Shown: positions 23,563 to 49,557 of the stretch, in pieces
Numbering within the stretch: position 1 is the stretch's first letter
Layout: each line of letters begins with the position of its first letter
NCBI GenBank assembly: GCA_937997635.1
Contig: CALLFA010000049.1
Span: 1-64,000, forward strand
DNA length: 64,000 bases
From: an uncultured Saprospiraceae bacterium
Lineage (GTDB): Bacteria > Bacteroidota > Bacteroidia > Chitinophagales > Saprospiraceae
Reading direction: 5' to 3'
Notes under the pieces: model-generated
The model's database searches: none
What the model saw: only the letters and a program-made list of their open reading frames with translations
What the model was told of the DNA's origin: nothing
Position numbers and translations under genes: made by a program

Positions 23563-26500
23563 CTAATTGATAATAATCATTTGTTTAGTTAGACTTTGAT
23601 CATTGTACGTGAGTGTATAGTACAATACACCTGTCGCATTCAATTCATCCTTTTTTAGGACAATCGAATTAGAACCTGCTTGATAATACCCAGTTTTGTT
23701 TGCTACAACTTGACCTGTGTAGGTATGTACCATTAAAGAAACATTTCCAGCAGCAGGGATAACAAAATCAACATTTGTCAAATCCTTAAATGGATTAGGA
23801 ACATTCTGAGAAAGTACTACGCCGAATTCGTTATGTAAATCTTCATCTACCTGCTCTATCCTAATAATTTGATTATCGAAATACGCTTCTGCTGACGTTA
23901 TTGATGAGTTTATTTCACTCTTCTCATAATTGACAGCTCCATTGACTTTGCTAAATTCGACAGTGAATAATCCTTGGCCAGCATTAATCTTGGTTGGATT
24001 AGTTTCATGCCAACTTACAGTTATCGCACCTTTTTCATCATGGATTCCAAAGTTTTCGTTAGAGATTAAACCAACACCATCAAGCCTTAATCCCTTGTAA
24101 ATCAGATTATTATAATCGTACTTAAGTGTGAATTGATATCCATCAAGCGTGATAGTATTATCAGCAATAACAGATAATGCAATGTTATTCCGATCTGATT
24201 CACTTTCATGGATTTGTAGACTAAGCACTTCTGAAGACCTGGTTTCTGCATTTGTAAACCCATTTACCTCAGCAGAATAATTAACATCTCCAGTTTTGAT
24301 TCCAATAAAATCTACAACCTTGTCTTCTTGTAGTTCTGATATACGATATGTGCTAGCATAATTATCAGATAATGGATTTTGGTCATCAAAAAATCTATAC
24401 TCTTTATTTATAAAATTCCAAACGCTGTTACCATTAAATGATTGAGACATACCCAGAATAACCTTCCGAAGTTCAACAATATCTAGGGCTGAAATTGATT
24501 GATCACTATTGATATCCGCAGCGATGAATTTGTACGGAGAATCTAAATTCAATGAGCCTAATATATGCTTTTGAATAATCACTAAATCCAAGGTTGATAC
24601 ACCATTTATCGGACTATCGTTATTCTTTTCCGGATTGATCACGTATTCTCCACCGATTTGCATATTTGGAAATGCATATTCACCATCTCTATCTGTATTT
24701 ACATTCGCTTCTGCTCCTTCAAGCTTGACATTGACATCAGACACCATGACTTCATCTGGACGTGAAATCGAACCTGAAATAATCGCACTAAGACCACTCT
24801 CAGTATCACTTTCTTTGCCATCACAACCCATCATCGTATCACCATTGCAAACATTTCCATTGTCTTGGACAGAGACAGTAGCCTCGCAGAATGATTGTCT
24901 GACTACTTGCTCACCTTCATGATCAGGAATCTCACCATTTTCGTCAACTGTTGTAAAATAAATAGGAATTGTAGTCGTGCCTATATCTTCACAACACAAT
25001 AATATGTTACTCTGATTAATATCAGTAGCGCTAAATGAAATAGCTACTCCATCAGCACAAGATGTATTCACATCTTTAGTGAAATCGCTTGCCCACAATG
25101 TGACATTACCATGTTCATTTAGACTTACTGCCAATCCATCAAGACAAAACGCGGTAGGTGCTTTACAAAAGTCAACCACAATATTGGTCACTTCATTTGT
25201 AGCGTTTCCACACTTATCGTATAAAGCATATTCAAATGTATATGAACCAATAGGCAACACCTGCTCAACGGTCAATTCGAATCCGTCTTGTTGACCTTCC
25301 AAAACCACCATTCCATTTTCATCAGTCAGACAATAGTACCATTCTAGTTCTGATCTCTCAGAGCAAGATCTACCACGAACCTGGCCTCTTCTTTGGATAA
25401 CAACAGTAGCAGGGCCACAAGATTGATCAAATGAGCAGAACTTTTGCTTATCCTGATGACCAAAAGTCATATTGTTCACTATAAAAGGCTCAGTATCGTC
25501 TTTAATGAAAAACACTTGTGGATCCAGTCTGACTCTGTCGTCAAATACACCATCAACTCTGGCATCATTGAAGTTACACCAATTAATGATCTGCCAATCT
25601 CTAATAATTTTATAGCAAAATTCACTATTGTTTTGAGTTCCGTTACAATCTCTTATGGTGTTACCAGCAAACAACACTTGATCCTCAAACTGAACACCCA
25701 ATAGATCGCAATTGTCCTCACCAGGGAAACTTGGTTCTCCAAATGCAGATGGAGGAAACAGATTTTCTGTATTTGTATCAAAACCAACACATACACCAGT
25801 ACCCACATCTGGGACACACAATATAGAATCTCTAAGTTCAGTGATAACAATTGTTTCAAAATTAAAGGTATCCGTTGGTATGAATTCCAACACCTGTTCG
25901 CATGGATCAGTTGCAAATTCTCTCTGACCAGGATTATATGCTGTAAATTTTCGGATAATCTCACCTCGACCACATTCATCTCTCATATCCATAGGGTCTA
26001 ATTCTTCAATAATTAAATTAGTAGCACAATTGTCTAGAGCATAACCATTATTAAAAGACACTGTATTCGGGTCTGGCACACTTGTACCTTCTGGTGTTTC
26101 GCCAGGATAAAAACCAACAAAATTAGTTGCAGATGAACCTGATCCCGTCAAAGCAAAACCATCTATCGCTTCTAATTGGCCACCATTGATGACAGTACCA
26201 AAGAAGGCATCTAAATTTTCTACATCTACTGGGCTGAATTCACATGCCAAAACTAAGTTTGGTGGGCAAATAATCTGAGGTTGTGATTTGTCTTGCAATT
26301 CAACAGACACCATACATTCATTAAAGTTACCCCATTTATCAATGGTCCTCATGACTACTAATGTCTCGTCGCCATTCAAATCACCACAGCAAAAATGAAT
26401 CGAGTTACTAAACCCGCAAACGTCTTCTAATTCAATTATATATAATTGTTCATTCACTCCAAGTTCATCAAGACCTGGTTTGTTTACCGAGGTAATTATC

Positions 26501-28470: not shown

Positions 28471-28714
28471 TTACTGTAACATAAATCTTATGTTAATGAA
28501 TTTTGATTTTCAAACTTTGAATGATCTACATCGATCATCAGCTCTCATCAAAATCAGGTAGGATTGGATTTAGGTATCTATTATCTACTAGGTGGGAATC
28601 AGTCGCAATAGTAAAGGTTCAATACGACTTGAGAACAAATATAGATTTAATATAATATGTTGTATCTCTTGTATATGGGTATTTTTTACATATAAATTTT
28701 ACAATATAAAAAAA

Positions 28715-28802: not shown

Positions 28803-31800
28803 CTATTCAATCACAATCATTTTTCTTGTCGCGATATTATCACCACTTTCTAATTCGTAGTATAGTACGCCAGCAACACCAACTTGTGTTTTAGTCAATA
28901 CTATTTCGTTATATCCTTTAGCGTATGTGCCATTCATTGTCATGATTGACTTTCCAGCTACATCGAATACTGTTAATCTAGCAGTACCTGCTTCAGGCAA
29001 GTTAAATCCAATAACCGTTTCCTCTCCAAATGGATTTGGTGAGTTTTGGTATAGATCAAATGCTGAAGTAAGATCCTGTGAACCAATGTTTAAGTTAACA
29101 TCTGCTCTGTCTAAAGAAGTACCTACATAAGCTTCAGCTTTAGTCAAACTTGAATTCAAGTTCAACGCTGTGCTTAAACGACCTTCTGAAGTAGCTCTAA
29201 ATACTAGTGTGAATAATACATCACTTGTACTTACTGCTTGAGCTTCACCCCAACTCATTGTCAATTGACCTTTGCTTACTCCTACGTTAGTATCAGAAAC
29301 ATCAATCGCACCTGCTGTTACACTCTGTAACTCTAAGCCTGCGTGATCTAATGTAAACTGGTAACCTGAAATTGCATTGAAGTTATCAGCACTTACTGGT
29401 ACTGATACTACTTGACCAGCGTCGAACGTATTGTCCTCTGCAGTCAATGTTAGCAATCCATTTGTACGAGTTTCTCCAATCATTAAGCTATTCGCTGCTG
29501 CATCACCATTGATATCTCCAATCTTAACACCGATGAAGTTTTCAGTCATCATGTCAGTAGAAAGGTTACCAATTGCAATGTTTTCATTGAATGGGAACGG
29601 ATTCGTAGCATCAAAGAACTCTTGTGATGCGTCTACAAATCTCCAACTGCTATTATTAGATAATTCAAGTACTTTTCCTAAGATCAACTCTCTCAACTCT
29701 ACAAGGTCACTTGCAGTAATTGAACCACTATTGTTGATATCCGCAGCTAAGTGGCTGTATGGGCTATCAAACGGTGTAAGACCAAGGATGTGCTTTTGAA
29801 TCAATACGATATCCAATGTACTTACGCCATTGCTGTAATCATTTGATTTATCAGCAGATAAGTCATAGTCGAATGTCAATGGATTGTTGTTGAAAGCATA
29901 ATTACCAGCGTCACCTGTTACAGCGCTCTTAGGGAATTCTGCTCCAGCATTTCCATTTACAGATACAATTGCATCGTCAACCATGTCTCCAAATCTTGTT
30001 GCAATGTTACCAGCGATAGTCGCTTGAGAGCCAGATTGCTCACCACCTTCGCCGTTTCCACAATCACCACCAACTAGTACTCCTACTTGACAGAAATCTG
30101 TATTACCAGATACATCTGTAATGAATACGTTTAGTTCGTAGAAATTTGCAAGATCGTCACAACTGAATGTGAAGTTAGGTGTAGCATCTTCTGCATCTGT
30201 ACCTGCAAGACCTATAGAGAATACTAAATCATCATCAGATGTACAATTATCAAAGCTACCTAGATCAAAATCTGCAGCCCAGATTTCAACTCCACCTCCT
30301 GCTTCCATGAATGCCGTAGTCACTCCTGAAATACAAAGTGGTGTTGGAGCTTTTGAATCTCCAAATGTGTGTTCTGATCTAGTAGTTGTAGTGTTTCCAC
30401 AACCATCTGTTACTGTCCAAGTAATTGTATGAGTATCTCCTGGAGAACCTTCTCCTGAGCCCATCGTAAATGATGCACCAGAACCAGTTCTTGTAACCGG
30501 ATCTGCACCAGGTTCTGTTCTTACCACAACCCAAGTCAATAGATCTGCACCTACATCCTCACCACCACAAGCATCAGTAGCTGTTGCTGTTATTGGAGCA
30601 GAACCAGTACAAGCGCCATTTTGACCTTTAGCAGTGTTACCACCGTTAGTCGCTACCTCTGAATCCTCTACTGAAACTTCAGGAGCAGAATCATCAACAA
30701 CGTTAATCACTTGATCGAATGTATAGAAACCATCTGCATCAAAACTATCATCATCTTCATATCTAAAGTAACGAGTCAAACCTGTCGCTTCAGCACATCC
30801 TTCACAAGCAGTACCATCAGTCCAATCCTCTACAGCGATGAAATCTTCACGACCTCTGTCGTTTTCATCATCAACGCCACTTTGGTTAGGATCCCAAGTA
30901 CACCAGTCAATGACTGTCCATCTGTTGATTATTTTCAAGCATGCGTCAGAAGCAAGTACTTCTTCAACTTCCAAGCTAAATCCAACAAGACCACATGGGT
31001 TATCACACCATACTGGTGGATCAGCTGGCACGTTAGAAGAACATGTCTGAACAGCTCCCATTTGTACATCAATATCATCGAACGTAGCTAATTCATCATC
31101 AGGGTCACATTCAAGGTTAATGCCTTCCTCAACTTCTCCATTATAATGGATTGGCCACTTAATTGTTAATGGATCGAAAGCGTCAGCAGTACCTTCTACA
31201 GTAATTGTCTGCGTACATCTTGGCTCACCATCAGAATGAGCACCATCACCATCTTGATCGATGATGTACTCTCTTATAATCTGACCTGTACCACAACCAT
31301 TCTCTACAACAACATCTTCACCTAATTGAGTAGCAGTCGCGCCGTCACAAACAGCAGCTATTGGAGAAGGACCGTCAACATCATCAGGATTCTCTAAACA
31401 ATTAATTGTAACATCTTCACATACAAGAGCTACTGCTGATTTATCAACAACCTGTACTTCTACCATACATTGGTTGACATTTCCAGCTGCATCTGTTACC
31501 TGTACGATTACCATAACCAACTCTCCTGCATCTTGGCAGCAGAATTTCACAAATGGACCAAAATCGTCAGATACCGGAGAAACTCCTTCTTCTATACACT
31601 CTCCGAATTTATCATATGTCAAGCAAATGTCTTCGCCACCTGTACATTCAGCTTCACAACATCCGTCCATTCGAGCAACTTCTACTGTTACATCACTACA
31701 ACCTGAATCGTTAGAACCAGCATCAAAATCTGTAGCAGCAATTTGTGCACCACCACCTGTTGTTAATGTAACTGTTAAGTTATTATTACAAACTGGAACT

Positions 31801-33833
31801 GGAGGAACATTATCAATTACTCTAAGTCCAAAAGTAGCATCAGAAGAGTTACCACAACCATCAGCTACATTGATAGTTATTGTTACAGAATCTGTAACAA
31901 ATAAACCTACGATATAACCTGATTCAGCATCAAACGTACCATGAGATAAATTAACTATTGGCTCTAGTTCAGAACCATCACAACCGTTAGTTGCACTAGG
32001 TAAATCTAAAGGAACTACAGCAGTACATGTCCATGGATCTATAGAAACAACTGGATCAACTGTTAAGTCTCCAAGTTCTGGATCTTCTGTATTTGAAACT
32101 TCGATAAATTGTTGATCATTTAGAACAACAGGTCCAGCTTGAGCGTCACACCAGTCAATTACTGACCAAGTTCTAATGAGTTTAAACCCACCACCACAAG
32201 CTTCGAATGGTCCAATATCAGATTTTGATACGATTAAGTTACAGTAACTTCCGTCTGTGATATGAACAATACCATTTGTTGTAGCAGGAGCTAGACAATT
32301 GCCTATTGGGAATGTTTCTAAAACATCATCATCTCCATTAATCAACTCACAAGCAACACAAGCTCCATCGTCATTTACGCAAATAGGATTTCCATTGACA
32401 TCAATTGGGAATGTTTTACATACCATTGAATCTCTTACTTCCTTATTTACAACAGGTAACAATACCCAAACTTCAGTATCTGGAGTTGCAGGATCATTAT
32501 CAGCATCGACAGGTATTGCCACTAATTGATCAGTGGTGTCAATAACTATTTCAAAGTGATCTAAAACACACTCTTCTCTTACAGCACCAATCTGTGTATG
32601 GTGATCTTCGAAAAATGGAAATGCTAATGAACCGCTTCCTGTAGCTGCGTATATATCAGCAGGGTCAGCGTCAGCATCCAATTCACCACAATCAAGATTT
32701 ACAGAGAAAGGAGCTCTAATATTGATATCAGCAATATCTAACTTCTCCGTTCCGAACCCTTGAGTTAATATAACTTCTTTGGTTACAGCACCATGTCTTT
32801 CAACATTAGCTGTATAAGTAACTACGCTTGTACCACTACAAGCATCACCAGTTGTTGTTGTCTGAACATTGATGTCGCCAACAATATCTAAGAAACAACC
32901 TCTGTCTATCATTGTTTCTATATCCTCAACTGTAATGAATCCTTCTGGGAATGATTGTGAATCATCTTCACTACACCATGCAATACAAGGAATACAGTCT
33001 GGAACAGTTAAATCTACTCTACAAACAGCATCAGGAGCTTCTTCTGGAGATGGAATTAAAGCACCAGTTGGATCGAAGACACTTGGGTTCAACGAAACAG
33101 TAACTGTTCCTGCACCATCATCTGACACCGTACATGTGGCTGTACACCAACCATCGGGGGCATCTGGACAGGAATAAATAACTGGCACTGTTGAAGCCAC
33201 ACTTCCTACGGAAGAACAAACTTCCTCCACACCATCACCGTCTAAATCGGCCATAACTGGTGTATAAGTAAAAGTCATGTCACCAGCAAGTAATTCGCTA
33301 ATGTGCACTTCTTCTACATCAGGACTTGAACCAGGAATAACAACACATGGGCTATTCAGGGTTGGCAATAAGTTAAGCTCTACAGTAACAGTTCCCCAAC
33401 AAGAATTACCTGTTGACGTTTCTGTAACTCTGTATGTTACAGGTCCTGTATTCGCAATTGATCCTAAATTTAAAGGATTAACTGGAACTGCACTTTGACA
33501 ACCTGTCATGCCGGTTAGATCAAAGTCGGCAGCGGTAATGGCACCATCGCCATTTGAATCAGCACCAAATTCCTGACAAGAGTACATAGATCCACCAGAT
33601 AGATTGCCTATGTCAACTAAGAAAGTCGGTCCAAAGGCAACGCCTAGAGAACCAACATCACCTTCTAGTAACATGTCAGCAGTAATACCTTCGCAGTCGG
33701 AATTCAGTGAGATTTGAACATTATCATTACAGGCTAGAGTGGGACCACTCTGACTGAATGACATCTGTGGAATCGCAAACATGCAACTTAGCACGAAACA
33801 ACACCACAAGTGAGTAAAATTCTTCACTTTCAT
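28803..33833 (-). CDS. Giant secreted protein (1676 aa), paralogue of 23563-28470: dockerin-like + cohesin-like + T9SS type A sorting domain
   Basis: 'NGVSTLDIVLIQKHILGLTPFDSPYSHLAADINNSGSITASDLVELRELILGK'; cohesin-like 'FDAGQVVSVPVSADNFNAISGYQFTLDHAGLELQSV...GQLTMSWGEAQAVSTSDVLFTLVF'; tail 'LYQNSPNPFGEETVIGFNLPEAGTARLTVFDVAGKSIMTMNG...YYELESGDNIATRKMIVIE'. Confidence 0.92.
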   Translation of the reverse strand: MKVKNFTHLWCCFVLSCMFAIPQMSFSQSGPTLACNDNVQISLNSDCEGITADMLLEGDVGSLGVAFGPTFLVDIGNLSGGSMYSCQEFGADSNGDGAITAADFDLTGMTGCQSAVPVNPLNLGSIANTGPVTYRVTETSTGNSCWGTVTVELNLLPTLNSPCVVIPGSSPDVEEVHISELLAGDMTFTYTPVMADLDGDGVEEVCSSVGSVASTVPVIYSCPDAPDGWCTATCTVSDDGAGTVTVSLNPSVFDPTGALIPSPEEAPDAVCRVDLTVPDCIPCIAWCSEDDSQSFPEGFITVEDIETMIDRGCFLDIVGDINVQTTTTGDACSGTSVVTYTANVERHGAVTKEVILTQGFGTEKLDIADINIRAPFSVNLDCGELDADADPADIYAATGSGSLAFPFFEDHHTQIGAVREECVLDHFEIVIDTTDQLVAIPVDADNDPATPDTEVWVLLPVVNKEVRDSMVCKTFPIDVNGNPICVNDDGACVACELINGDDDVLETFPIGNCLAPATTNGIVHITDGSYCNLIVSKSDIGPFEACGGGFKLIRTWSVIDWCDAQAGPVVLNDQQFIEVSNTEDPELGDLTVDPVVSIDPWTCTAVVPLDLPSATNGCDGSELEPIVNLSHGTFDAESGYIVGLFVTDSVTITINVADGCGNSSDATFGLRVIDNVPPVPVCNNNLTVTLTTGGGAQIAATDFDAGSNDSGCSDVTVEVARMDGCCEAECTGGEDICLTYDKFGECIEEGVSPVSDDFGPFVKFCCQDAGELVMVIVQVTDAAGNVNQCMVEVQVVDKSAVALVCEDVTINCLENPDDVDGPSPIAAVCDGATATQLGEDVVVENGCGTGQIIREYIIDQDGDGAHSDGEPRCTQTITVEGTADAFDPLTIKWPIHYNGEVEEGINLECDPDDELATFDDIDVQMGAVQTCSSNVPADPPVWCDNPCGLVGFSLEVEEVLASDACLKIINRWTVIDWCTWDPNQSGVDDENDRGREDFIAVEDWTDGTACEGCAEATGLTRYFRYEDDDSFDADGFYTFDQVINVVDDSAPEVSVEDSEVATNGGNTAKGQNGACTGSAPITATATDACGGEDVGADLLTWVVVRTEPGADPVTRTGSGASFTMGSGEGSPGDTHTITWTVTDGCGNTTTTRSEHTFGDSKAPTPLCISGVTTAFMEAGGGVEIWAADFDLGSFDNCTSDDDLVFSIGLAGTDAEDATPNFTFSCDDLANFYELNVFITDVSGNTDFCQVGVLVGGDCGNGEGGEQSGSQATIAGNIATRFGDMVDDAIVSVNGNAGAEFPKSAVTGDAGNYAFNNNPLTFDYDLSADKSNDYSNGVSTLDIVLIQKHILGLTPFDSPYSHLAADINNSGSITASDLVELRELILGKVLELSNNSSWRFVDASQEFFDATNPFPFNENIAIGNLSTDMMTENFIGVKIGDINGDAAANSLMIGETRTNGLLTLTAEDNTFDAGQVVSVPVSADNFNAISGYQFTLDHAGLELQSVTAGAIDVSDTNVGVSKGQLTMSWGEAQAVSTSDVLFTLVFRATSEGRLSTALNLNSSLTKAEAYVGTSLDRADVNLNIGSQDLTSAFDLYQNSPNPFGEETVIGFNLPEAGTARLTVFDVAGKSIMTMNGTYAKGYNEIVLTKTQVGVAGVLYYELESGDNIATRKMIVIE

Positions 33834-34495: not shown

Positions 34496-35440
34496 TTACT
34501 TCTCTACAGTCGTTTCCCTACGTATTCTGTCAATGGTATATGTAAAGGACAACTCATGACTACCGTTGTTAAACTGTTGGAAATCGTTGAATGAGATGTT
34601 ATAGGAATAAAAGAAACCAAAATCGTCAATATTTACTCCTGCTAAGAAACCAAATCTGTTTTCTCCACCTACAGAATAGGTCAATCCACCTGTTAAAGAT
34701 TCGTCTAAGAATTTCAACCTCAAATTAAGGTCTGCGTGTGTCGGTGTTAACATTAAGTACTTATATACTATAGAAGGTTCTATGACTAAATCATAATCTG
34801 GCAATCGATGTCTGTATCCCAAATGAACGATGGCTCCAAACTCTTTGTCACCTGTAGTTCCGCTGTCAAAATCATTCAGCATTGAGCTAACTAATGATGG
34901 CAGTGTAAGTCCATAAATGACTTTATCCATGTATTCTCCGTATAATCCTAGGCTGACATCAAAAAATTGTGAGCCATTAAGTCTATCGAGTATTTCTACA
35001 TCATTTTGTGCGACAAGAATTGAGCTAGCATCAGTAGCTGAAATTTGATGTTGCAAATATTCTAAGGATAATCCAGCTCTTACATTGTTGGTTTCAGATT
35101 CGATGCCGTATGAAACAGACACTTGTCCCTTTAATGTTTCGAATGATGCGAATCTGTCGCTGAGCAATTGAGCACCAATGCCTATTCTATTTCCGATTGC
35201 CCCATCATAGCTGAAGGTATACGTACTAGGTGCTCCTGGGAAACTTGCCCAAGTATTTCTGTAATTAACCAACAATTCATGGTTATCTCGAAAACCTGTA
35301 TAACCAGGATTGATTAAAATTGGATGTACATGAGCTTGCGTGAAGATTCCTCTTTCACTGTGCAATCTGACCTGAGCAGATAAATCTGTTCCCAAGACAA
35401 GTACAACTAAAACTACGATTAAGCGCAATATATTTTTCAT
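34496..35440 (-). CDS. PorP/SprF family type IX secretion system membrane protein
   Basis: 314 aa; 'HPILINPGYTGFRDNHELLVNYRNTWASFPGAPSTYTFSYDG' and beta-barrel-like C-terminus; adjacent to a type B sorting-domain protein, the usual PorP/SprF pairing. Confidence 0.93.
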   Translation of the reverse strand: MKNILRLIVVLVVLVLGTDLSAQVRLHSERGIFTQAHVHPILINPGYTGFRDNHELLVNYRNTWASFPGAPSTYTFSYDGAIGNRIGIGAQLLSDRFASFETLKGQVSVSYGIESETNNVRAGLSLEYLQHQISATDASSILVAQNDVEILDRLNGSQFFDVSLGLYGEYMDKVIYGLTLPSLVSSMLNDFDSGTTGDKEFGAIVHLGYRHRLPDYDLVIEPSIVYKYLMLTPTHADLNLRLKFLDESLTGGLTYSVGGENRFGFLAGVNIDDFGFFYSYNISFNDFQQFNNGSHELSFTYTIDRIRRETTVEK

Positions 35441-38400: not shown

Positions 38401-40130
38401 TCTCCACCGTCACCGCCGTCACCAGTTCCAATTAGCGCTTGGCCTTGAGATAAACATAGCGTTTGTGCTAAAGCCTCACCATTGGCAATTTCAACACCAA
38501 AATTTGTCAAGTCCACAAATTCTATATCTGAAGTTTGGCCGTTTGAGCCACTTCCATCAAAGCATATTTCGAATAAAACTGATCCATCTTCTGGTGAGAT
38601 ATTATCTCCTCCAAATGGGACAAGCCACAATACTCTTAAAATTCCTTCATTAATCAGGTTCTCGTTTAATGTTATTCCTGATAAGGTTCGTTCATTCACT
38701 CCAGTAAATGTTAACACGTTAGGATCCCACTCTATTCCAGTCTGTAAGCTTGCTATATCAACCCAATTGCCGCTGGTAACAGGGAAACACGTGTTTCCAC
38801 CTGCTGCAACTGATCCTCCTTGTATGACTAGACTAGTGTCATCTGAATCAGCACATACATTTTGGGTGCCGCCTGTTTGACCACCATTATCACCACCGCC
38901 ATTATCGCCACCTCCGTTATCACCACCTCCGTTGTCACCGCCACCGTTATCACCACCGCCGTTATCGCCGCCGCCGTTATCACCGCCACCGTTGTCACCG
39001 CCACCGTCACTCGGCTGTCCTACATTTACTCTTCCATTTTGTGTACATACATCGAATGTATTTCCTTCACCACTCGCAACTTCAATATTGAAAGATGGTA
39101 ATGAGGATAAGCTAACTTCTGCAGATTCGCCATCATTGGCTTGAACATCAAAACAAATTTCAAATAAAACAGAACCATCATCCAAGGTGACAGGAACATC
39201 AGAAAATCCAATTATCCATAGAAGTCTTATTTCTCCAGCGTCAGCTTGCGTAGCGTTTTCTGTGATTCCGTTTATGTTTATTTCATTAACTCCTGTAAAG
39301 TTTAATTCTGTTGGATCCCAAGTGACACCTGTTTGCAAACTGGCCACGTTAGTGAAATTTGCTGCACTAACAGGAACGCAAATATTCACTCCTGAATCTG
39401 TAGCTTCAATACAATCAAAAGCCAAAACAACACCAGCATCTCCATCACAATTGGAGTCGCAATCAGGGAATGTTGTGCCACCGTTGTTACCACCATTATT
39501 GCCACCGCCATTGTCGCCGCCACCATTATCACCACCACCGTTGTCACCGCCTCCGTTATCACCACCCCCATTGTCACCACCTCCATTGTCACCACCTCCG
39601 TTAGCATCACAATTTTCTCCTTCAATATCGACGACAGAATTAGTTGAAACAGCTCCAATTACTTCAAAATCATTATTAACAAATCTGGCAACTTCAATTG
39701 CTCTTGGTGTATTAGAAATATCGATCGTTGTCTGAGCACATTCTACACCTACACCATTTAGACGAATGGTAAACAGTCTTGTGCCATCCTCCAAACTTCT
39801 TGGTTCGGCACTAGCTAAATTCCACGAAACTGTCAATTCACCTTCATCAACAGCGACTGCTCCTGGTGGAGTTGCTATATTTCCTTGAAAAGAAAACTCT
39901 TCTAATACGGTAGTTACATTTTCAATACTATTATATGTCAACACAGTAGGATCCCAGTTAATGGAGAACTGTAATGAGGCAATATCAGTAAAATCGCTTA
40001 CTGATACATCTATATCTACTGTTTCACCAGGCTGAGCTGTTCCTCCTGTAAAAACAACCGAAATTTGAGATTGCAGTACTGTCAGGGAGGACAAAGCGAG
40101 AAAACAGGTGCAAAAAAAGGTTTTAAACAT
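35472..40130 (-). CDS. Scaffoldin-like protein (1552 aa): ~5 cohesin-like domains, GGGDN / GGD / poly-Pro linkers, SprB-like repeats, T9SS type B (gliding motility-associated) C-terminal sorting domain
   Basis: Repeated 'xxPGxxxxxxVxxxNFTDIASLQxxIxWDPxxLTFxGxNE...G(E/I)LRLLWxxxxxxxVTxxDGxxLFEICFD' units; SprB-like 'GSITTQILGGTVPFTFAWSGGLPATQNQSGLDAATYQVTITDGNNCT'; C-terminus 'PIITPNGDNLNETLVFSCNDI...LGVYDRWGRIVYAETNYQNGWNG...LPEGGYMWVF...YRGTVTVLK'. Confidence 0.92.
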   Translation of the reverse strand: MFKTFFCTCFLALSSLTVLQSQISVVFTGGTAQPGETVDIDVSVSDFTDIASLQFSINWDPTVLTYNSIENVTTVLEEFSFQGNIATPPGAVAVDEGELTVSWNLASAEPRSLEDGTRLFTIRLNGVGVECAQTTIDISNTPRAIEVARFVNNDFEVIGAVSTNSVVDIEGENCDANGGGDNGGGDNGGGDNGGGDNGGGDNGGGDNGGGNNGGNNGGTTFPDCDSNCDGDAGVVLAFDCIEATDSGVNICVPVSAANFTNVASLQTGVTWDPTELNFTGVNEININGITENATQADAGEIRLLWIIGFSDVPVTLDDGSVLFEICFDVQANDGESAEVSLSSLPSFNIEVASGEGNTFDVCTQNGRVNVGQPSDGGGDNGGGDNGGGDNGGGDNGGGDNGGGDNGGGDNGGGDNGGQTGGTQNVCADSDDTSLVIQGGSVAAGGNTCFPVTSGNWVDIASLQTGIEWDPNVLTFTGVNERTLSGITLNENLINEGILRVLWLVPFGGDNISPEDGSVLFEICFDGSGSNGQTSDIEFVDLTNFGVEIANGEALAQTLCLSQGQALIGTGDGGDGGDGGDGGDGGDNMGDGDDVCEGSSDVSLILETQNTDPGQNMCIPVTAGNFSDIASIQAGFSWDVDVLTYTGLNEVAITGISLNENNISDGELRLLWLIGLGDDPVTVDDGTTLFELCFDAAGADGESSTIEVGDLPGFALEIASGAGVPLASCIDNGFVQVGDPGIDPPPPPPPPAGDLQLTSTTVSNAMTGQQSCVDISASNFTDIQSAQLNIQWDPAFMTFASLMNPGVLDGFGDSNSNLTDPGNLRISWSPFSPVTLADNTTIFTLCFNVIGTCETTNSSPVTFVDNATLSIEFTDSNNVILPVNVQSGSIAIDCPMGTEIVLGPGEITNPECPDDNTGSILISAPNGFVSPVTCTWTREDGSVIRSSVGDCNLQAVPSGTYTLTAVDAQGTTSMRDYTIQTPGAPDISFSTVDATCTTGGSITTQILGGTVPFTFAWSGGLPATQNQSGLDAATYQVTITDGNNCTFVRTVPLAGSVSSSDPLTINLDNLEDGSCNGGSRIEISVTGGCSPYGFMWTGPNGETSNEEDIFRVAPGEWTVRVTDDNGNVAIESFTLSSSVPQIEIQEGSVIRPTCDARNAGSIFIDVTGGCGNYIYRWTGPNGFTSSQEDISNLEAGQYEIEVTDNNDDSINATTRVTLTLEGNVDFTSDVVNATNREANNGAVTIDITSPQDMLTFAWSDGSNELNREELPPGEYTLTISDGTDCPTIFFTEIQWAAIFLDELAASPISCVDLEDGGIIGQVVGGCEDRVVRVNGVETIFPLGNLAPGTYEITADDACGTAVNRTIVIDEYQSFTAEAVVTCDGTDGTITLNTTGGSGDFTVEWSEGVVDPNDQRIVTGVSSATVTAVISDGCEQMEVSGIEVECDGTTPPPPPPVAGTCPGTPIITPNGDNLNETLVFSCNDINENIPNQLGVYDRWGRIVYAETNYQNGWNGVNQDGEQLPEGGYMWVFTQGTGANIVIYRGTVTVLKSGN
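37882..37912 (-). repeat. Poly-proline linker-encoding tract
   Basis: Encodes 'PPPPPPPP' between cohesin-like units 4 and 5. Confidence 0.75.
38365..38422 (-). repeat. (GGD)n linker-encoding short tandem repeat
   Basis: 9-bp unit encoding GGDGGDGGDGGDGGD between cohesin-like units 3 and 4. Confidence 0.85.
38881..39007 (-). repeat. (GGGDN)n linker-encoding 15-bp tandem repeat
   Basis: About 8 copies of a 15-bp unit (plus strand CCACCNCCRTTATCR-type) encoding GGGDN. Confidence 0.9.
39481..39603 (-). repeat. (GGGDN)n linker-encoding 15-bp tandem repeat, second array
   Basis: About 6-7 copies plus degenerate GGGNN/GGNN units, between cohesin-like units 1 and 2. Confidence 0.9.
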
Positions 40131-40362: not shown

Positions 40363-43300
40363 TTATTGAACACAAACTATCTTTTTCGTCATTTTTTGAG
40401 CACCAGAAATCAGCTGGCACAGGTAAACGCCAGGCCCATTTAATTGGTTTGCGCTAAGTGTTATTGTATGCCTTTCTTTATTACTTAACGTCTGTTTTAA
40501 TACAAGTCTTCCACTTTCATCAAGGATTCGCATTTCACTTTCACCTTCAACTGAATCTGCAATTATGTTGATAACAGTCTGATTAATAAAGGGATTTGGT
40601 CCAATGTTTACTGTAATGGCTGTATTCACAGAAGATTCTAGGTCTATATCGAGACCTCTAGTTTCATAGTTTTCTGTATATATTTCTCCACGTAATCGAC
40701 TGTTTATCAATGATATAACAGGTACTTCTCCTATAATATTTTCTGCTTTACGCCTAAACGTCACAAGCAATAATTCGTCTTTATCAAGTGCTTGGTTTGT
40801 TGTATGGTTCCAGCTCACGTTTAACTGCCCATCTTGTACATGGTAATGTTCACTAGAAAAATTCTTTAATCTAGACTCTATATTCACCAACTCATACAGT
40901 GAATCATCGAAGTCCGCACTAAACTGTATGCCTCTAAGGCTTATATCTTCCGTTGGCTGAAATCTGACAATTACATCACTGTTTTTGATAGTCTGAGACT
41001 GGATGAGTGTTAGCTTATTGGAATTTCGGGTCTCTACATGCTTAATTCTGGATGAAGGACTTGCTGAGTCGTTGACATCTCCAACTTTCACAGCTGTGAA
41101 GTCTTTAATAGCATTGGCCTCATTTAAGTCTTCGATATCTATAAACTCGGAAAATGGCCATGGCGAAAGAGGATCAAAGAACTCTTGACCGCTGTTAACG
41201 AACTTCCATGACCTGTTGTCTGGAAAATTCTCATCTAGTCCCAGAAGCACTTTTCTTAAAATTACGATGTCAGAAGCTGACAGACTCCCATTATTGCTGA
41301 CATCCGAAGCTATAATTTTATATGGGTCGCTAAATGGTCTGTTTCCAACGATATGATTCTGGATCAATACGAGATCTAGTGTACTTACACCATTTAATGG
41401 ATCATCTTCTTTTTGAGCTGTTACTTGATAATTGTAACCAATTGACATTCCACTAAACTCGTACTGTCCAAGTTGATCAGTCTTATCTTTGTAATATGCA
41501 TCTATGCTTGGTTGGTAAAGCTCTATCTCTACATCTTCTACAAACTGATTAGTGGAAGTCATCACGGCACCTTGTATATCAGTAATCCCTTCCACTGGTG
41601 AGTCTGGATCGCACGCTTGGTTAGCTTGAATTTCTATTTGACTTCTACAAAAGTCTGAATTATCTTGCTGGTCAAAGACCCACACTTCTACTTCCTGAAA
41701 GCCAACATCATCACAATCAAAGCTCAACACAGGACTCAAACTGTCTTGTGAATTGGCTACTCTAATGAGATAGGTTAATTCATTGTCTAAGCAATTATCT
41801 GCACTTGATAAATCCAAATCATTTGCCCAAATTTCTACATCTCCTGTGGAGCCGGAAATGACGGTTGTTATTTCTCCACGACAAATTGCTGTTGGAGGTA
41901 CATCGTCAATGATAGCGAAGGTATCTTGACAAGAAGACAGATTGCCACACTGATCTTCTGCATACCAAGTAATGACATGAGTCCCAAAAGGGACAACGTT
42001 GCTGGCGTACTTGATGCCTTGTCCATTTGTTGTTTCTCCATTTTGAAATTCGATCTTATACTCCACTTTCAACTCATTTAAAGGGGTACAATCGTCAGAT
42101 ACATTTGCTGTAAATTCTACAGCAACACTGCAATCTCCAGTTGGGCCATTAAATTGCTTGATCATGCAATTGTCTTCAAATTGTGGAGGGATACTGTTGT
42201 GAAATTCGAGCTTTTGCGTGTAGCTCCAAATTCCTTTTGTAGATGTCAGATTAGATTCATCATACTGGCACCAATCAATGACAGTCCATTTTCTCAATAT
42301 TTTGGTACACGCGTTTTCGTCAGTAAGAAATTCTTCATCACTGTGATTTGCCACGACCAATGAGCAACCAAGAGTTAAAGAGTCTATAGTAGGACTACCC
42401 GTTATCGCTGGATCGACAGCATCTTGATTGCAATCAGATTCACTTACATAGTCTGATGGCCAATTGGCAGGATGCATTTCGAAAGGTATTTCTATCAAAA
42501 CCTGGATGTGCTGATCATAAGAATCTAAGATGACGTTTTGAGAATTTCGCAATGACCACCTTCTGATCACAGAGCCAACTTTACATTGATTTGTCGTATA
42601 CTGATCTTCATAATCAATACTATAGACCGCACAATCTTCGTCAATGGTTGGATTTCCCATTTCCTTTTGGTCCAGATCTTCATGGCAATAGATTGTTTGA
42701 TCTGGTGGAAATGTGCGAAATCTAGGTGTTACATTTTCAACGATAGACACATTTACCGTGCAGGTATTCTTATTTCCTGAACTGTCTTCAACTTGTAACA
42801 TGACTTGATGATCAGTGCTGACATCCAAACAGCAAAAATCTACATACGGAGCAAAATCAATAATCGTTGAATCGGTACATTCTGACAAAGACAACCGCTT
42901 TATACTCAACTCAACATCCGAACAAGCATCAAAACTTCCATTATCGAAGGATTCTGCATAAACACGCGCTTTCCCATCACTAGACAAGGTTACAGAGTTA
43001 TTTTCTTCGCAGACTGGAATCGGAGCATTGTAGTCATCTATGACTACTTCATAATAGCAACTTGTTTCATTGCCGCATTCATCATAGGCTGTGCATGTAA
43101 TCCAGCTTCTTCCACCAGGCATATTGTTAATCCAATAGTCTCCATTTTGCTCAAACGCATCAACTTTGGTTAGATTTTCATAAGGACTTTCTCCTTCTAC
43201 TACGGGTCTGTAAGCAAACTCGAATGTAAAGTTTCCAGAACCACAACCATAGCCGATCTGTGGCGTCTCAATTTTTAATCTGGATAAGCCGCAATTTATG

Positions 43301-46300
43301 CCGTCAGAATCATAGCTTTTTACTTCGTCGATGCAGGTGATTATAGGACCAAATTCATCAACGACTTGTATCACTTGGTAGCCAAATAACGGATTATTGT
43401 ATGCATCACCTCTAGGTAAACACCAATCGAGCAAGGTCCATTTTCTTATGATTTTATAACTATGGCCACATTGTGGTATGATTTGATCTTCAAACCCAAT
43501 TTCTAAGCTACAATGACCACTGGAGCCACTTATTGGGTGATTCTGATACCTTGGGTAGCCCGTCAATTCCGGGTCAGGCTTATCGTCCGCATTGAGATCA
43601 TACGAGGCAACGTCTGTACACGCTATATGCATGTCTGCAGGAAATTGAATGTCGTTTAATTCAAATGCTTTGTATATGATTGTGTATTCACAAGGTCGAG
43701 ATTCGTTATTGTAATTGTCGATTGCCACATAAGTTGTCGTCTTTTTTCCCCTAAGAGAATTATTGGTATCGCATGTAAAATCTTCAATCTCGACGTTTCT
43801 TTTTTCTATAGTAAAGGAACTACACGCATCTTCTACCCAAGCTGAAATATCCTTTATTGGATCAGGTAAATGGCAACTGATTGTATCCATTTCAGGGCAA
43901 TAAATGATTGGTGGTTTTTTATCTTCTAAAGTAATGGTACCCCAACAAGAATTATCTGTCGCTTGACCCAATTCAAATACTTGTGCTTGGATGGTTTTAC
44001 CGATGTATTGTTTGCCAATTGGATTGGGAATTAGCGCATTATTATTTGCTGGATCTGACAGGACAACATAGTAATTATCCAAGCACTCTCTGACATCTCC
44101 TTCTAGTAATATTTCAGGTCTTATGAAGGCGCTGCATTCATCATCAATACCAATATTTACGCCATTACTGCTACACGCAAGGCCACAGGATTCTATGTGC
44201 GGAATGTATTCGAATTCTACTTGGTAAAAAATAGAACAACTGTCGTATTGATCGTCACTATTTCCTGGAAAGGTACAACCAGAAAAGACGGTAAATACTC
44301 GCTCAATTTCATATGATTGAGGACCTGTTTGGCGAATAATGTCTCCATGATTTACATCATAATTGGTACTGCCGCAATTGCTAATGACCTGTATGGCATT
44401 GTAGTCTGGCTCTGGGATCTGGTCAAATGATTCAAATATTCGATTGGAAGAAGAAGGACAGTCAATCAATAATTTTTTCAGAGGTGGAGCTACGATAATG
44501 GAACGGCATTCAGCGTTATTTTTTGGGTTTTTACATGTCGGCGAATTTACGACACCAACTTCTATTTTATAAGGTGTGTTATACGGATAAATTAACTCAA
44601 ATTCTGCACGAGTATTGCTAGTTAGCTCAGATGAATTACTTAAGCAAACTGGTGCAGAAATTGAAATTGCTTTTCCTGTTAAGTCGATCGCTTCAAGTTG
44701 CCCATTTAAGCCACCCAATTCAATATTAACTGAATAAGTTTCATTTTTTAAGTCTGTAATTTTAGGTGAAGACAATACTATCGGAGCGATACAATCATCT
44801 GTATTTTCGCAACCCATTCTTGTACCAAATGCATTGACAATTAAGCCATTCGGTCCATCACCAATATGCACGTTAGTTGTCCTGTCCCAAATTGCTAAAT
44901 AATAATTTTTTGGTATTGAAAAATCAGGTTCATCTATTATAATTGATTGCCAAAATTCACTGGATAAACCTGATCGTATAAACGTCAAACTGCTACAATT
45001 CCCAGATGCGGTATGTTGACCATTTGTTCCTTCAATATGACTGTTTGATAAATATAAAGCCCAAGCTAAATCTTCATCGTCATCCAAAAACAATTGGAAA
45101 GAACTGACTAATGGTCGCACATCAAAATTAACCCAAATGATATCTTCACCTACTTGAGGAATGCTTGGCGAAGACAAATAACCTGTATGCGGATTATAGT
45201 AATTATTGTTGTTGAACTCTATTTCAAAAGCTGATGGATCATAGGTGTATGTTGGTGCTTCCAAAGTCATAAAATTACCTTCGATTCCACACTTAACAAT
45301 ACCGCCTGAAGTAGCAGTATCGTCGATACTGCCATCCGCTTTCCATGAAGAGCCAGAATTAAAGCGTTGGGTAGCCAAACAAGGTGTCGATTGAGCACAT
45401 TCATTGGTCACTTTAATGATGATTTCAGCAGCTTCACTTTGGCAAGGACTTGTCTCATTAAAGTCAAAAGAATAGGTGTATACATATGTCCGTACAGTAG
45501 TCACAGAAGTAAACTGTAATAGGCCAGATGTCGGATCGAAAACACCCCCATCTTCAGGTTGAGGTCCAGACCATTGTCCACCAGGATCTTGGGCATTGAG
45601 TAGTGTATTTAAATCAATGGTTATATCTCCTTCTTCGAATGTGCATATTTCGTGTTTGGATCCATTGCCTGCCTCTGGTTGAGCACTGACGTAAACGGTT
45701 GCAATAGCTTCAGCTGGGCTACAGGCGACTTGATCATTATTTACACTCAATTGAAACTCATACTTACCAATTGGAAGGAAGCTAAAATCAACATTATGTG
45801 GATTTGATATATCAACATAAGCTCCGCTTATATCCACCCAGACTCCTCCCAGTGGTGTTTCTTCTATTCCTAAAATTGATGATAAATCAACGATAGCATC
45901 TCCATGGTCACAGATTGTATAAGCACCACTGGTGCCAACTGCGCTGCCTTCAACGACTAATGTTAAGTCTGAAACTGTTGTATTTTCTCCACATAAAGTT
46001 GATTCAAACGTATATTCAAACACATAGTCTCCTGCAACTAAATCTGTCGTTTCAATTATCCCTGATTGCGGATTAAATTGTATGTCTTCTGGTAAAATCG
46101 TGCCGATACTTGGCCTAAAAATACCGCCAAGTTGACTATTATTTGTCAGTAAATCATTGAGATTTTCAGTGTTTACTTCGCCCTCACAGACCAATATTTG
46201 TTGGTTTAAACCAGCGGCTTGTGGCACACCATCAATGACAAATACAGTGACTAATGACTCGCTATTTATACAGTCAGGTCCATTTTCAAAACGATAAATA

Positions 46301-49300
46301 AATTGATATTCACCAGGGAATGCATTTGCCGGAATAAACATGCCATTTGAAAAAGCAGAACCAGGTGGATTCGAAGTATTTGGCTCCCAAATTCCACCTA
46401 TATCTCCTCCCGTATCCAAGGCAAAAGCAGGTAGATTTTCAACATTTCCGCATAAGGTAAAACTTGTATCTGAACCCGCTGAATTTTGTTCTTCTATCGT
46501 TATCAATAATGAGGATTCTACGTTTTCAGAACACTCCCCTATTACCTCTATTAGATAGGTATATTTAAAAATTCCTGCATCTAATGCTGATAAATGAACT
46601 GCTAAAGGATTAGTCAAATCGACACCAGAATTATCAACATCTACCCAGTTACCTCCCGTTTGTTCTATTTGAAGTAATGCATTAAAATCAAGCACATTTT
46701 CGTCTCCTTCACACAATGTCAACTGTTTGTTATACCCTTGAATTGGTTCTGCCGATACTATAGATAATACAAATGTAACATCTGATAATTCGCATTCTTC
46801 AGAGCCAAAAAACTCATAAGTGAAGACATAATTGCCGATGCCTAAATTGGACAAATCGACAGCAGTTGGATCTGATAAATCAAGGCCTGAACCATCATTA
46901 TCCATCCATTGGCCACCCGTGTCAAAATCTTGTAATTGATCGAAAAAATTGATTGTTGCGGATGATAAATAATCCTTACAAAGAGTCGTATTTGTTGAAA
47001 TACCGGCATTTAGCTCATTGGTTATTTCAATAGTTATTACTTCTGGGTCTAAATCGCAAGAGCCTGCAAATGCATATTCAATAACGAAACGTTGAGGAGC
47101 AAATAGATCACGAGGATTAAATACGCCTGAATAACGATCAAAAGCATCAGGATTGCCTTGTTGAAGGGTAAATAGTCCTCCGGCTGACGCCCCATTTGCT
47201 TCTACAATAGAAACTATGTTAAGTTCATTTGTTGATCCTTCACAAAGCCTAATCTCTAATGGTCTTTTTAGTTGTTGAATCTCATCTGAAATGGTTAGTG
47301 ACAAGACAGATTGTTGTTTCGCACAAGCACCATTTTGTTCCTGTTTGTACACGACAAAATAGCTTCCCGTATTGGCTGCTGAATAATCCAATATACCTGA
47401 CTCAGCATCTAAATCTAATAGATTAGAATTTGCTCCTGTAATTGTCCAAGAGCCACCTGAATCAATGTTAGGAATGACATCAAAAAGACGTAAAGTCCCT
47501 TCGCCAGCACATATCTGTAAAGACATGTCCTGACCCGCTGAATGGAGTTCCCATATTGTTAGATCTAACTGCATTTGCACAGGTGTACAGCTTTGAGCAG
47601 CACCTATTTCGTAAGTATAACTCAAATGTTCTACATCGTCTATTTGCAGTTGTTCAAGATCAAGACTATTTGAAATTTCAATATTGTTCTCATCAAACCA
47701 TTGTCCTCCTTTTACCGTCTCACCCAACAAACTAAATAAGTCCAAATCAGTTGACATGGATTCGCACAGTTCGACGGCAACATCTTGTCCTAATGTGGGT
47801 GGATCAGCACTTATTTCAAGCATAATGGTTGCCTCAGACTTATGGCATCCAAATGGGCCTTCAAACTGATAGGCAAAGGTGTAAGATCCAATTGGTAAGG
47901 CAGCAGCATCAACTTGTGTTGGATCAGAAATATCCAGACCAGTTTGATCGATATCAACCCAATTACCACCTTGCGACCCAATAAATGCACCTTGTCCCGT
48001 CAAATCAACAATGCCATTGCAACTTACCACAAATCCTCCTGGACCAGGGTCAGGTTGCTCTCCTTCAATAATTAGAGTGGCAATTGAGGTTTCAGATGAT
48101 ACACATCCATCATATATATTAGATTGATATTCAAACTGATAAATACCATCTGTCAGATTTTGTATATCAAATTCTTGTGGGGTTTCAATTACCAATGTGC
48201 TTTGCATATCTGTCCATTGTCCTCCCATTTCTTCATTTGATATGACATCAAACAAATTGACTGTTGAAATCCCACCACGGCATATATAGGCATCACCGTC
48301 TATTCCTACAGAAGGCTGAGTAATCACTTCTATCATAACAGAAGTCTCTTGAACACCACACCCTTCAATATCTGAAAAGGCATAGCTAAACGCATAAGTT
48401 CCTGGTGCAACACTACTCGGAGAAAAGGTCGAAGGAGCGGTAAATCCAGCTGTTTGACCGGCCATCCAATTTCCTCCAGAATCAGGATTGCCACTAAGCA
48501 AATCAAAAAGATCTATATCAGTGGCAGTGGTGCAGACTATTCTATCATTAGCTATACCAGTATTTTTTCTTTCATTAATGGTTAAATAAACTATTGATTC
48601 CCCACTACAATTAGGAAATGAATAGGTAAATCCATAGACATTATTTGGTGGGATAATTGATGCTCCTTCAACAGAAAAAGTGCCATCAGAGCCAAAAACG
48701 CCTCCTTGTGGATTTGAAGGCAACTCGGTCCACACACCACCAAAATCTTCTCCTGTCAACAAGGAAAATAAATCGACACTCTCTGGAGTATCCGAGCAGA
48801 TTTTTCTATTTGAAGCTTCTCCAGTATCTGGTATAAAACTGATGACATTGATGCTCACCGTTGCTTCTTGAACTGGGCATGTTCCTGTATCAAGTGAATA
48901 GATGAAATCGTATTTACCTTTGCCGCCAACAGGGTTAAATGTTGAATTGCTAGCCTCAAAAATACCACCAGCTGGATTATTGCCTTCTCGCCACTGGCCA
49001 CCTTGCTGAGCATCTACCAATAGTGTTTCTAGTGCTATCAGGTTGGATTCATTACAAGATTGTATGGTCAAGCCTTCTCCTGCATTGGGAGCAGGCATAA
49101 CATTCACAATGGCGAATGTGGTGCCGTCTTGGATACACTGTCCGAAAGAGCTGTAAGTGTAGCCAAATGTGTATGCGCCAGGCTGCATTCCAACTGGATC
49201 AAAAATTGAATTGTTGTCTTGGAATCCGGCTGGTGAATCCCCTTGACCAGCCCAAAACCACTCACCATTTGGTGGTTCATTTATCAATAAAGAATTTAAA

Positions 49301-49557
49301 TCTACTGAAGGTACATCTGTGTTACAGATTGCGATATTGTTAGCTATGGGACATTGGGAGTGTGCATTGAAGCTTAGGAATAGGACACCTATGCACACAA
49401 GTAAAGTCAGACGACAGAGGGTCTGTGAGATACTTTGGTAAGCGTATCCATTTTTTAATTTACTTAGAATAACATCTCTGTTCATAAAACATCCGATTGT
49501 GATGTAACATGTTCGTGTATACCAAATACTGGGGGATAGGTGAAGAGTTACCTTCAA
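40363..49557 (-). CDS. Giant secreted protein (3064 aa): ~15 N-terminal ~100-aa repeats, then the same Cys-rich/dockerin-like/cohesin-like/T9SS type A architecture as its two paralogues
   Basis: Repeats with 'C......(V/I)DLFxLLxGxxxGGxWxDxxxxG...F.P..L.pGxYxFxYxFxxxxxC'; 'NGVSTLDLVLIQNHIVGNRPFSDPYKIIASDVSNNGSLSASDIVILRKVLLGL'; cohesin-like 'ISLRGIQFSADFDDSLYELVNIES...GQLNVSWNHT'; tail 'IGPNPFINQTVINIIADSVEGESEMRILDESGRLVLKQ...MTKKIVCVQ'. Confidence 0.9.
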   Translation of the reverse strand: MKVTLHLSPSIWYTRTCYITIGCFMNRDVILSKLKNGYAYQSISQTLCRLTLLVCIGVLFLSFNAHSQCPIANNIAICNTDVPSVDLNSLLINEPPNGEWFWAGQGDSPAGFQDNNSIFDPVGMQPGAYTFGYTYSSFGQCIQDGTTFAIVNVMPAPNAGEGLTIQSCNESNLIALETLLVDAQQGGQWREGNNPAGGIFEASNSTFNPVGGKGKYDFIYSLDTGTCPVQEATVSINVISFIPDTGEASNRKICSDTPESVDLFSLLTGEDFGGVWTELPSNPQGGVFGSDGTFSVEGASIIPPNNVYGFTYSFPNCSGESIVYLTINERKNTGIANDRIVCTTATDIDLFDLLSGNPDSGGNWMAGQTAGFTAPSTFSPSSVAPGTYAFSYAFSDIEGCGVQETSVMIEVITQPSVGIDGDAYICRGGISTVNLFDVISNEEMGGQWTDMQSTLVIETPQEFDIQNLTDGIYQFEYQSNIYDGCVSSETSIATLIIEGEQPDPGPGGFVVSCNGIVDLTGQGAFIGSQGGNWVDIDQTGLDISDPTQVDAAALPIGSYTFAYQFEGPFGCHKSEATIMLEISADPPTLGQDVAVELCESMSTDLDLFSLLGETVKGGQWFDENNIEISNSLDLEQLQIDDVEHLSYTYEIGAAQSCTPVQMQLDLTIWELHSAGQDMSLQICAGEGTLRLFDVIPNIDSGGSWTITGANSNLLDLDAESGILDYSAANTGSYFVVYKQEQNGACAKQQSVLSLTISDEIQQLKRPLEIRLCEGSTNELNIVSIVEANGASAGGLFTLQQGNPDAFDRYSGVFNPRDLFAPQRFVIEYAFAGSCDLDPEVITIEITNELNAGISTNTTLCKDYLSSATINFFDQLQDFDTGGQWMDNDGSGLDLSDPTAVDLSNLGIGNYVFTYEFFGSEECELSDVTFVLSIVSAEPIQGYNKQLTLCEGDENVLDFNALLQIEQTGGNWVDVDNSGVDLTNPLAVHLSALDAGIFKYTYLIEVIGECSENVESSLLITIEEQNSAGSDTSFTLCGNVENLPAFALDTGGDIGGIWEPNTSNPPGSAFSNGMFIPANAFPGEYQFIYRFENGPDCINSESLVTVFVIDGVPQAAGLNQQILVCEGEVNTENLNDLLTNNSQLGGIFRPSIGTILPEDIQFNPQSGIIETTDLVAGDYVFEYTFESTLCGENTTVSDLTLVVEGSAVGTSGAYTICDHGDAIVDLSSILGIEETPLGGVWVDISGAYVDISNPHNVDFSFLPIGKYEFQLSVNNDQVACSPAEAIATVYVSAQPEAGNGSKHEICTFEEGDITIDLNTLLNAQDPGGQWSGPQPEDGGVFDPTSGLLQFTSVTTVRTYVYTYSFDFNETSPCQSEAAEIIIKVTNECAQSTPCLATQRFNSGSSWKADGSIDDTATSGGIVKCGIEGNFMTLEAPTYTYDPSAFEIEFNNNNYYNPHTGYLSSPSIPQVGEDIIWVNFDVRPLVSSFQLFLDDDEDLAWALYLSNSHIEGTNGQHTASGNCSSLTFIRSGLSSEFWQSIIIDEPDFSIPKNYYLAIWDRTTNVHIGDGPNGLIVNAFGTRMGCENTDDCIAPIVLSSPKITDLKNETYSVNIELGGLNGQLEAIDLTGKAISISAPVCLSNSSELTSNTRAEFELIYPYNTPYKIEVGVVNSPTCKNPKNNAECRSIIVAPPLKKLLIDCPSSSNRIFESFDQIPEPDYNAIQVISNCGSTNYDVNHGDIIRQTGPQSYEIERVFTVFSGCTFPGNSDDQYDSCSIFYQVEFEYIPHIESCGLACSSNGVNIGIDDECSAFIRPEILLEGDVRECLDNYYVVLSDPANNNALIPNPIGKQYIGKTIQAQVFELGQATDNSCWGTITLEDKKPPIIYCPEMDTISCHLPDPIKDISAWVEDACSSFTIEKRNVEIEDFTCDTNNSLRGKKTTTYVAIDNYNNESRPCEYTIIYKAFELNDIQFPADMHIACTDVASYDLNADDKPDPELTGYPRYQNHPISGSSGHCSLEIGFEDQIIPQCGHSYKIIRKWTLLDWCLPRGDAYNNPLFGYQVIQVVDEFGPIITCIDEVKSYDSDGINCGLSRLKIETPQIGYGCGSGNFTFEFAYRPVVEGESPYENLTKVDAFEQNGDYWINNMPGGRSWITCTAYDECGNETSCYYEVVIDDYNAPIPVCEENNSVTLSSDGKARVYAESFDNGSFDACSDVELSIKRLSLSECTDSTIIDFAPYVDFCCLDVSTDHQVMLQVEDSSGNKNTCTVNVSIVENVTPRFRTFPPDQTIYCHEDLDQKEMGNPTIDEDCAVYSIDYEDQYTTNQCKVGSVIRRWSLRNSQNVILDSYDQHIQVLIEIPFEMHPANWPSDYVSESDCNQDAVDPAITGSPTIDSLTLGCSLVVANHSDEEFLTDENACTKILRKWTVIDWCQYDESNLTSTKGIWSYTQKLEFHNSIPPQFEDNCMIKQFNGPTGDCSVAVEFTANVSDDCTPLNELKVEYKIEFQNGETTNGQGIKYASNVVPFGTHVITWYAEDQCGNLSSCQDTFAIIDDVPPTAICRGEITTVISGSTGDVEIWANDLDLSSADNCLDNELTYLIRVANSQDSLSPVLSFDCDDVGFQEVEVWVFDQQDNSDFCRSQIEIQANQACDPDSPVEGITDIQGAVMTSTNQFVEDVEIELYQPSIDAYYKDKTDQLGQYEFSGMSIGYNYQVTAQKEDDPLNGVSTLDLVLIQNHIVGNRPFSDPYKIIASDVSNNGSLSASDIVILRKVLLGLDENFPDNRSWKFVNSGQEFFDPLSPWPFSEFIDIEDLNEANAIKDFTAVKVGDVNDSASPSSRIKHVETRNSNKLTLIQSQTIKNSDVIVRFQPTEDISLRGIQFSADFDDSLYELVNIESRLKNFSSEHYHVQDGQLNVSWNHTTNQALDKDELLLVTFRRKAENIIGEVPVISLINSRLRGEIYTENYETRGLDIDLESSVNTAITVNIGPNPFINQTVINIIADSVEGESEMRILDESGRLVLKQTLSNKERHTITLSANQLNGPGVYLCQLISGAQKMTKKIVCVQ

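Follow-up and report, generated by a model that had tools for sequence, protein, structure and literature searches.

Gene content of the cluster

The analyzed DNA (the window), a stretch of 64,000 nucleotides, comes from contig 49 in the draft genome (5.36 Mb) of an uncultured bacterium of Saprospiraceae, a family of mostly aquatic bacteria. Five clustered genes were distinguished within it, all on the minus strand, i.e., a gene of a giant protein (49557-40363), a polycohesin scaffold gene (40130-35472), a PorP/SprF gene (35440-34496), and two further giant genes (33833-28803 and 28470-23563), and their re-examination showed that the coordinates given in an earlier note, made from the sequence alone, were right.

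The scaffold (P0001, 1552 aa) comprises a signal peptide and five cohesins on linkers rich in D, N, and G, and also contains SprB repeats and a sorting domain of type B (CHU_C) (Pfam E-values: 8.5e-29 for Cohesin (PF00963), 7e-14 for SprB and 8e-17 for CHU_C). Where the earlier note spoke of about five cohesin-like domains, there are five Pfam-grade cohesins, which together reach 101 bits against the Pfam cut-off of 24.1. With a local cohesin HMM they were placed, on the minus strand, at 39684-40055 (E 7e-34), 39072-39410 (4e-31), 38481-38828 (7e-27), 37974-38321 (1e-30), and 37509-37859 (3e-31). A search of the PDB with a scaffold-cohesin profile gave 17 matches, all of them cohesins and none of any other fold, the fold of the scaffold domains being in this case assigned by sequence; a chance match was rejected as the source of the cohesin call. 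Apart from P0001, no ORF of the genome has several matches to PF00963. Its sorting domain (35532-35741, minus strand) matched CHU_C (8.1e-17) and TIGR04131 (3.7e-8; 33.4 bits, just below the cut-off of 35).

The gene of P0005, a putative shuttle or anchor (34496-35440, minus strand), starts 31 bp downstream of the scaffold gene, so the PorP/SprF gene is located directly downstream of the cohesin gene, as had been noticed before; the protein matched PF11751 (PorP_SprF, 3.9e-42) and the NCBIfam T9SS_PorP_fam model (2e-50).

Elsewhere in the window, a 3106 aa protein (2106-11426, minus strand) has a T9SS sorting tail as its sole Pfam-recognized part. Another gene, a few genes away from the cluster (52409-54313, minus strand), codes for a protein of the animal haem peroxidase family (An_peroxidase 8e-140) that bears a type A tail of the T9SS and could act as a cross-linker of surface proteins.

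The C-terminal cassette of the giant proteins

Each of the three giants ends with a cassette of about 405 aa, composed of an Ig-like (carboxypeptidase-regulatory-like) domain, a dockerin, a spacer carrying the motifs WRFVD..FFD..NPWPF and DFIGVKIGDVN, a cohesin-like domain of its own and a type A T9SS tail. Two of these features were absent from the earlier note, namely the cohesin-like domain that directly follows the dockerin and the difference in tail type between the giants (type A) and the scaffold (type B). In the 1635 aa protein (23563-28470, minus strand; cassette profile E 1e-128) the cassette spans 23566-24783, with the X-dockerin-like module at 24253-24783 and the cohesin-like domain at about 23827-24220. 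The 1676 aa protein (28803-33833, minus strand), also matched by the cassette profile, has its X-dockerin-like module (Ig-like domain, dockerin, and spacer, delimited with the use of the AF2 model and couplings) at 29490-30020 (Dockerin_1 4.4e-8), its cohesin-like domain at 29067-29456 (PF00963 6.6e-9), and its type A sorting domain at 28806-29057 (TIGR04183 1.9e-6), all on the minus strand. The largest protein (3064 aa; 40363-49557, minus strand; cassette profile E 9e-123) additionally contains a HYR domain (3.8e-8), and its cassette is located at 40366-41577 (X-dockerin-like module at 41047-41577, cohesin-like domain at about 40627-41016). Ahead of the cassette, conserved cysteine positions recur across about 800 residues, which agrees with the previous description of these proteins as Cys-rich.

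A dockerin, predicted before for each giant, was found in all three: the locally scored Dockerin_1 matches (29.2 bits at 24457-24600, 31.0 at 29682-29828, and 26.2 at 41242-41388) are all above the Pfam cut-off, while in the full-length hmmscan those of the first and the third giant are just under it (22.3 and 20.4 against 22.9). Similarly, the PF00963 match of the cassette cohesin reaches 38.1 bits locally, and none is listed by the full-length hmmscan of that protein. The two calcium-loop-helix repeats of a type I dockerin (PF00404) are present, with helices at cassette residues 68-78, 87-93, and 103-113 in the AF2 model, and a search for related sequences gave mostly cellulosomal dockerins. 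The calcium positions D70, D94, and D105 are 100% conserved. Loop 2 is canonical, and loop 1 is a variant without the canonical Asp at position 5. As for the recognition positions, T68 (97%) and H77 (98%) of repeat 1 are conserved, and position 104 of repeat 2 is variable.

Dockerin modules and cargo in the whole genome

As a strict dockerin regular expression recovered just three modules, profile searches were adopted. An iterated profile, built from the C-termini of the three giants and run on the window genome, revealed 34 ORFs sharing the cassette, which total about 79,000 aa by open-frame lengths, i.e., about 4% of the genome; it also matched all five scaffold cohesins, solely via its cohesin part (i-E from 1e-5 to 7e-13). 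With a module-only profile, 42 dockerin modules were counted, compared with 39 in one and 47 in another genome of its genus. The three giants of the window are therefore not special, and the concept of the cluster as a local three-ligand system was rejected.

Five more proteins of this genome (L019:3916-5787, L021:3366-6011, L037:2788-4494, L043:415-2334, and L044:961-2610) have signal-peptide-like N-termini and a C-terminal dockerin module, and possess neither a cohesin nor a T9SS tail. One of them has a trypsin-like region (a weak Trypsin_2 match in L043), one carries 12 MopE metal-binding repeats and one a DM13 domain. One idea is that such proteins might leave the periplasm riding on a cohesin-bearing T9SS substrate.

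No glycoside hydrolase (GH) or CBM was recognized with Pfam in P0001-P0004, nor in 31 further paralogs from the window genome, for which the C-terminal ~1,100 residues were scanned; four of these contain HYR in that part. Among 34 complete cassette proteins of relatives, Pfam indicated HYR (14 proteins), HYR_4C (seven), C-type lectin (four) and further domains of Ig-like or surface type. Families of glycoside hydrolases, CBMs or proteases gave no match; the sampled cassette proteins thus have no recognizable enzyme domains. The previous statement that GH, CBM, and protease motifs are missing holds for GHs and CBMs in the scanned proteins; with regard to proteases it is not quite right genome-wide, because of the trypsin-like region mentioned above. 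A cellulosome was rejected, since dockerin-bearing glycoside hydrolases and a scaffold CBM are absent from all sets scanned.

Structure and residue couplings of the cassette

The AF2 model of the whole cassette (75 sequences) has a pLDDT of 94.5 and a pTM of 0.80, and that of residues 1-318 a pLDDT of 96.2 and a pTM of 0.91. If two domains of 176 and about 130 residues floated independently, a pTM near 0.55 would be expected by our own estimate, and the value of 0.91 argues for a dockerin module packed firmly, in the model, on the cohesin of its own chain. With the 318-residue, tail-less model as the Foldseek query, the best PDB matches were nearly all cohesins, some of them non-cellulosomal, and with the full cassette model Ig folds dominated. 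Among the best matches of the cassette cohesin were the non-cellulosomal folds of an Archaeoglobus fulgidus cohesin (2xdh) and a Clostridium perfringens cohesin-like module (2jh2). A. fulgidus reportedly has a cohesin and a dockerin within one chain; these two systems are not known to involve a T9SS or a PorP-partnered polycohesin, and have far fewer ligands.

The confident packing of a cohesin present in cis raises the possibility that the cassette dockerins have a partner other than the scaffold; dockerins engaging solely within their own chain were among the outcomes that, according to the earlier note, would refute its proposal. The module and the cohesin could instead form a rigid intramolecular stalk in front of the sorting domain, leaving the scaffold cohesins to bind something else or each other; in line with this, the two travel together in the 34 ORFs of the window genome and family-wide. 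The residue couplings (plm-DCA, 257 sequences, Neff 243) speak against such a stalk. Strong couplings reach 2.2-3.6 per 1000 pairs inside the block of the Ig-like domain, dockerin and spacer, which they show as one X-dockerin-like unit at the level of sequence covariation, and the frequency for dockerin with cohesin is 0.25 per 1000. For the module paired with the cohesin, no excess over the module-tail control was seen (Fisher p 0.11-0.78, with limited power). The stalk also leaves unexplained the dockerins without a cohesin and the co-occurrence of scaffold and cassettes described below, and we consider it unlikely.

The presence of one dockerin and one cohesin per cassette would also allow the dockerin of one giant to bind the cohesin of the next, in filaments beginning on a PorP-anchored polycohesin. 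Both cohesin classes share the outward residues Q221, S/T223, T254, T293, and E296, as this arrangement would have it, and its third point of support is a small gene that encodes a single-cohesin protein of about 265 aa with a tail of type A and is located directly upstream of the scaffold gene in 20 loci outside the genus of the window (L164, L166-L171, L173, L174, L176, L179, L340-L343, L346, L348, L352, L354, and L358). The linker is short, however, which together with the AF2 packing favors self-binding, and such a chain seems improbable to us. We give a small chance, too, to the broader idea of the cassette as a self-assembling unit, whose adhesins would chain into a filament or sheet from the anchored polycohesin as an enzyme-free cohesin-dockerin coat.

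The two cohesin classes differ in Y298, which is 100% conserved in the cassette cohesins and not in those of the scaffold, and in a Cys at cassette position 273, found in 83% of scaffold cohesins and missing from cassette cohesins. Since many scaffold cohesins also have a Cys in an N-terminal strand, a disulphide within the scaffold cohesin domain is possible.

Distribution of the system within Saprospiraceae

Strong scaffold-type cohesin matches and dockerin cassettes were compared across 150 genomes of the family, the cohesin threshold being a proxy for the scaffold, as it also admits single-cohesin genes. Both elements occurred in 130 genomes and neither in 14, with the cassette only in five and the cohesin only in one (Fisher 9e-15, a statistic that ignores phylogeny). 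The 14 co-absences are spread over 11 genera, and one of the five cassette-only genomes (G128) has a locus with three cohesins and PorP, recognized with a weaker threshold and by locus inspection. In a class-wide draw of 295 genomes, the module was present outside the family in five, in one or two copies each.

The synteny of PorP/SprF with a multi-cohesin gene, suggested earlier as a check, was confirmed: in 42 genomes (the window and 41 further ones) a polycohesin gene with a type B (CHU_C) tail is directly adjacent to a PorP/SprF gene, which lies downstream in 39 of them (the window included) and upstream in three. Seventeen of these genomes come from a set unused in model building. The number of cohesins per polycohesin gene varies between species from 2 to 10 (five in the window). 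The locus is also carried by a named isolate, Portibacter marinus (L065), with the scaffold at 259-3315, PorP at 3340-4260, and two cassette genes.

Several variants were observed as well. A 1967-aa ORF in L189 has two cohesins, mixed tail matches and no PorP, and the same genome contains a standard locus (L188). Proteins of L191 (6862-8979), L193 (13-3468), and L201 (6330-11585) have a dockerin and a type A tail together with additional cohesins, and are possible adaptor scaffoldins. Single-cohesin type B proteins of about 1,500-2,100 aa (L353:169-4845, L357:5175-9806, and L172:6665-12940) constitute a separate conserved group, which was left out of the polycohesin count.

In a maximum likelihood tree of 52 PorPs, 24 rows formed one clade (support 100/99); 22 of them adjoin a polycohesin; the remaining rows are the window PorP (L316) and one located beside a contig-truncated scaffold (L192). 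The scaffold-linked PorPs of L184 and L187, both of the upstream type, are placed outside the clade. There are 8-13 PorP paralogs per genome, yet the scaffold-linked ones belong mostly to this single clade, and the tree supports the view that a dedicated PorP lineage would serve the polycohesin scaffold.

This linkage, together with the co-loss in 11 genera, bears on a further possibility, i.e., that the cohesin- and dockerin-like parts are mere structural spacers of T9SS proteins, something else accounting for the conservation of the locus. Low-score Dockerin_1 matches do occur in unrelated control genomes, but the structural match to cohesins and the invariant calcium positions are likewise at odds with simple spacers, which makes this account very improbable.

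Proposed function and relation to known systems

The explanation that we favor, with moderate confidence, is a scaffoldin system of non-cellulosomal type, exported by the T9SS and serving to display adhesins on the cell surface. The polycohesin would be secreted via its type B tail and retained at the outer membrane by the adjacently encoded PorP/SprF. Its cohesins would receive the dockerin modules (about 42) of giant, cysteine-rich, HYR- or lectin-like proteins, each exported through its own type A tail, and a modular adhesive coat would result. The built-in cohesin of an adhesin might cap its own dockerin until the scaffold is reached, or take the dockerin of the next adhesin. Dockerins would bind to cohesins in trans, the dockerin set being the obvious candidate ligand pool of the scaffold, and the giants are probably adhesive. 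Counting against this reading, about 42 modules compete for five cohesins, loop 1 of the dockerin has no Asp5, and repeat 2 varies at its recognition positions. The initial proposal of a scaffold with ligands is thus backed by domain identity, co-occurrence, synteny, PorP lineage, and the HYR/lectin cargo, and was incomplete as a ligand inventory, since the ligands, about forty in number, have cohesins of their own, and five more dockerin proteins lack cohesin and tail.

The role of P0005 in exporting or retaining the scaffold is presumed by homology to the pairs SprB-SprF and PG1035-PorP, in which PorP-like proteins are bound by proteins with a type B CTD (PMC9143113). Cognate sprF-like genes are commonly located directly downstream, and type B substrates are known or predicted adhesins (PMC12618676). 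The window shares this gene order with both pairs, and its scaffold has SprB repeats, whereas those adhesins are not described as having cohesins (PMC9143113, PMC12618676).

The clostridial cellulosome (CipA-type scaffoldin, type I/II cohesins, X-dockerin) is similar in having one multi-cohesin scaffold, tens of dockerin proteins per genome and a dockerin beside an Ig-like X-type module. It differs in its S-layer anchor, in place of the type B tail and PorP of a Gram-negative bacterium, and in its glycoside hydrolase cargo, in place of putative adhesins each with its own cohesin. In the openly accessible literature on cohesins or dockerins with T9SS, Saprospiraceae, gliding motility or Bacteroidetes, no account of such a system was found. 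The nearest published one there appears to be the T9SS-like scaffoldin of Candidatus Stygibacter (Cloacimonadota), with tandem cohesins, a C-terminal surface-attachment domain (CTD) and dockerin partners; in the parts of that account available to us, the scaffold has CBMs, the dockerin proteins are hydrolases and peptidases, and no PorP linkage is reported (PMC8542988).

Most members of one Bacteroidota family thus have a scaffoldin-dockerin system whose cargo is adhesin-like and whose T9SS PorP partner is probably dedicated to it. The family appears to have taken cellulosome-type cohesins and dockerins to hang dozens of giant adhesin-like proteins via this secretion partner. If true, this would be a modular docking layer for T9SS surface display and an added non-catalytic use of cohesin-dockerin chemistry, and would supply new Gram-negative cohesin-dockerin pairs; as Portibacter marinus carries the locus, the system is open to direct testing.
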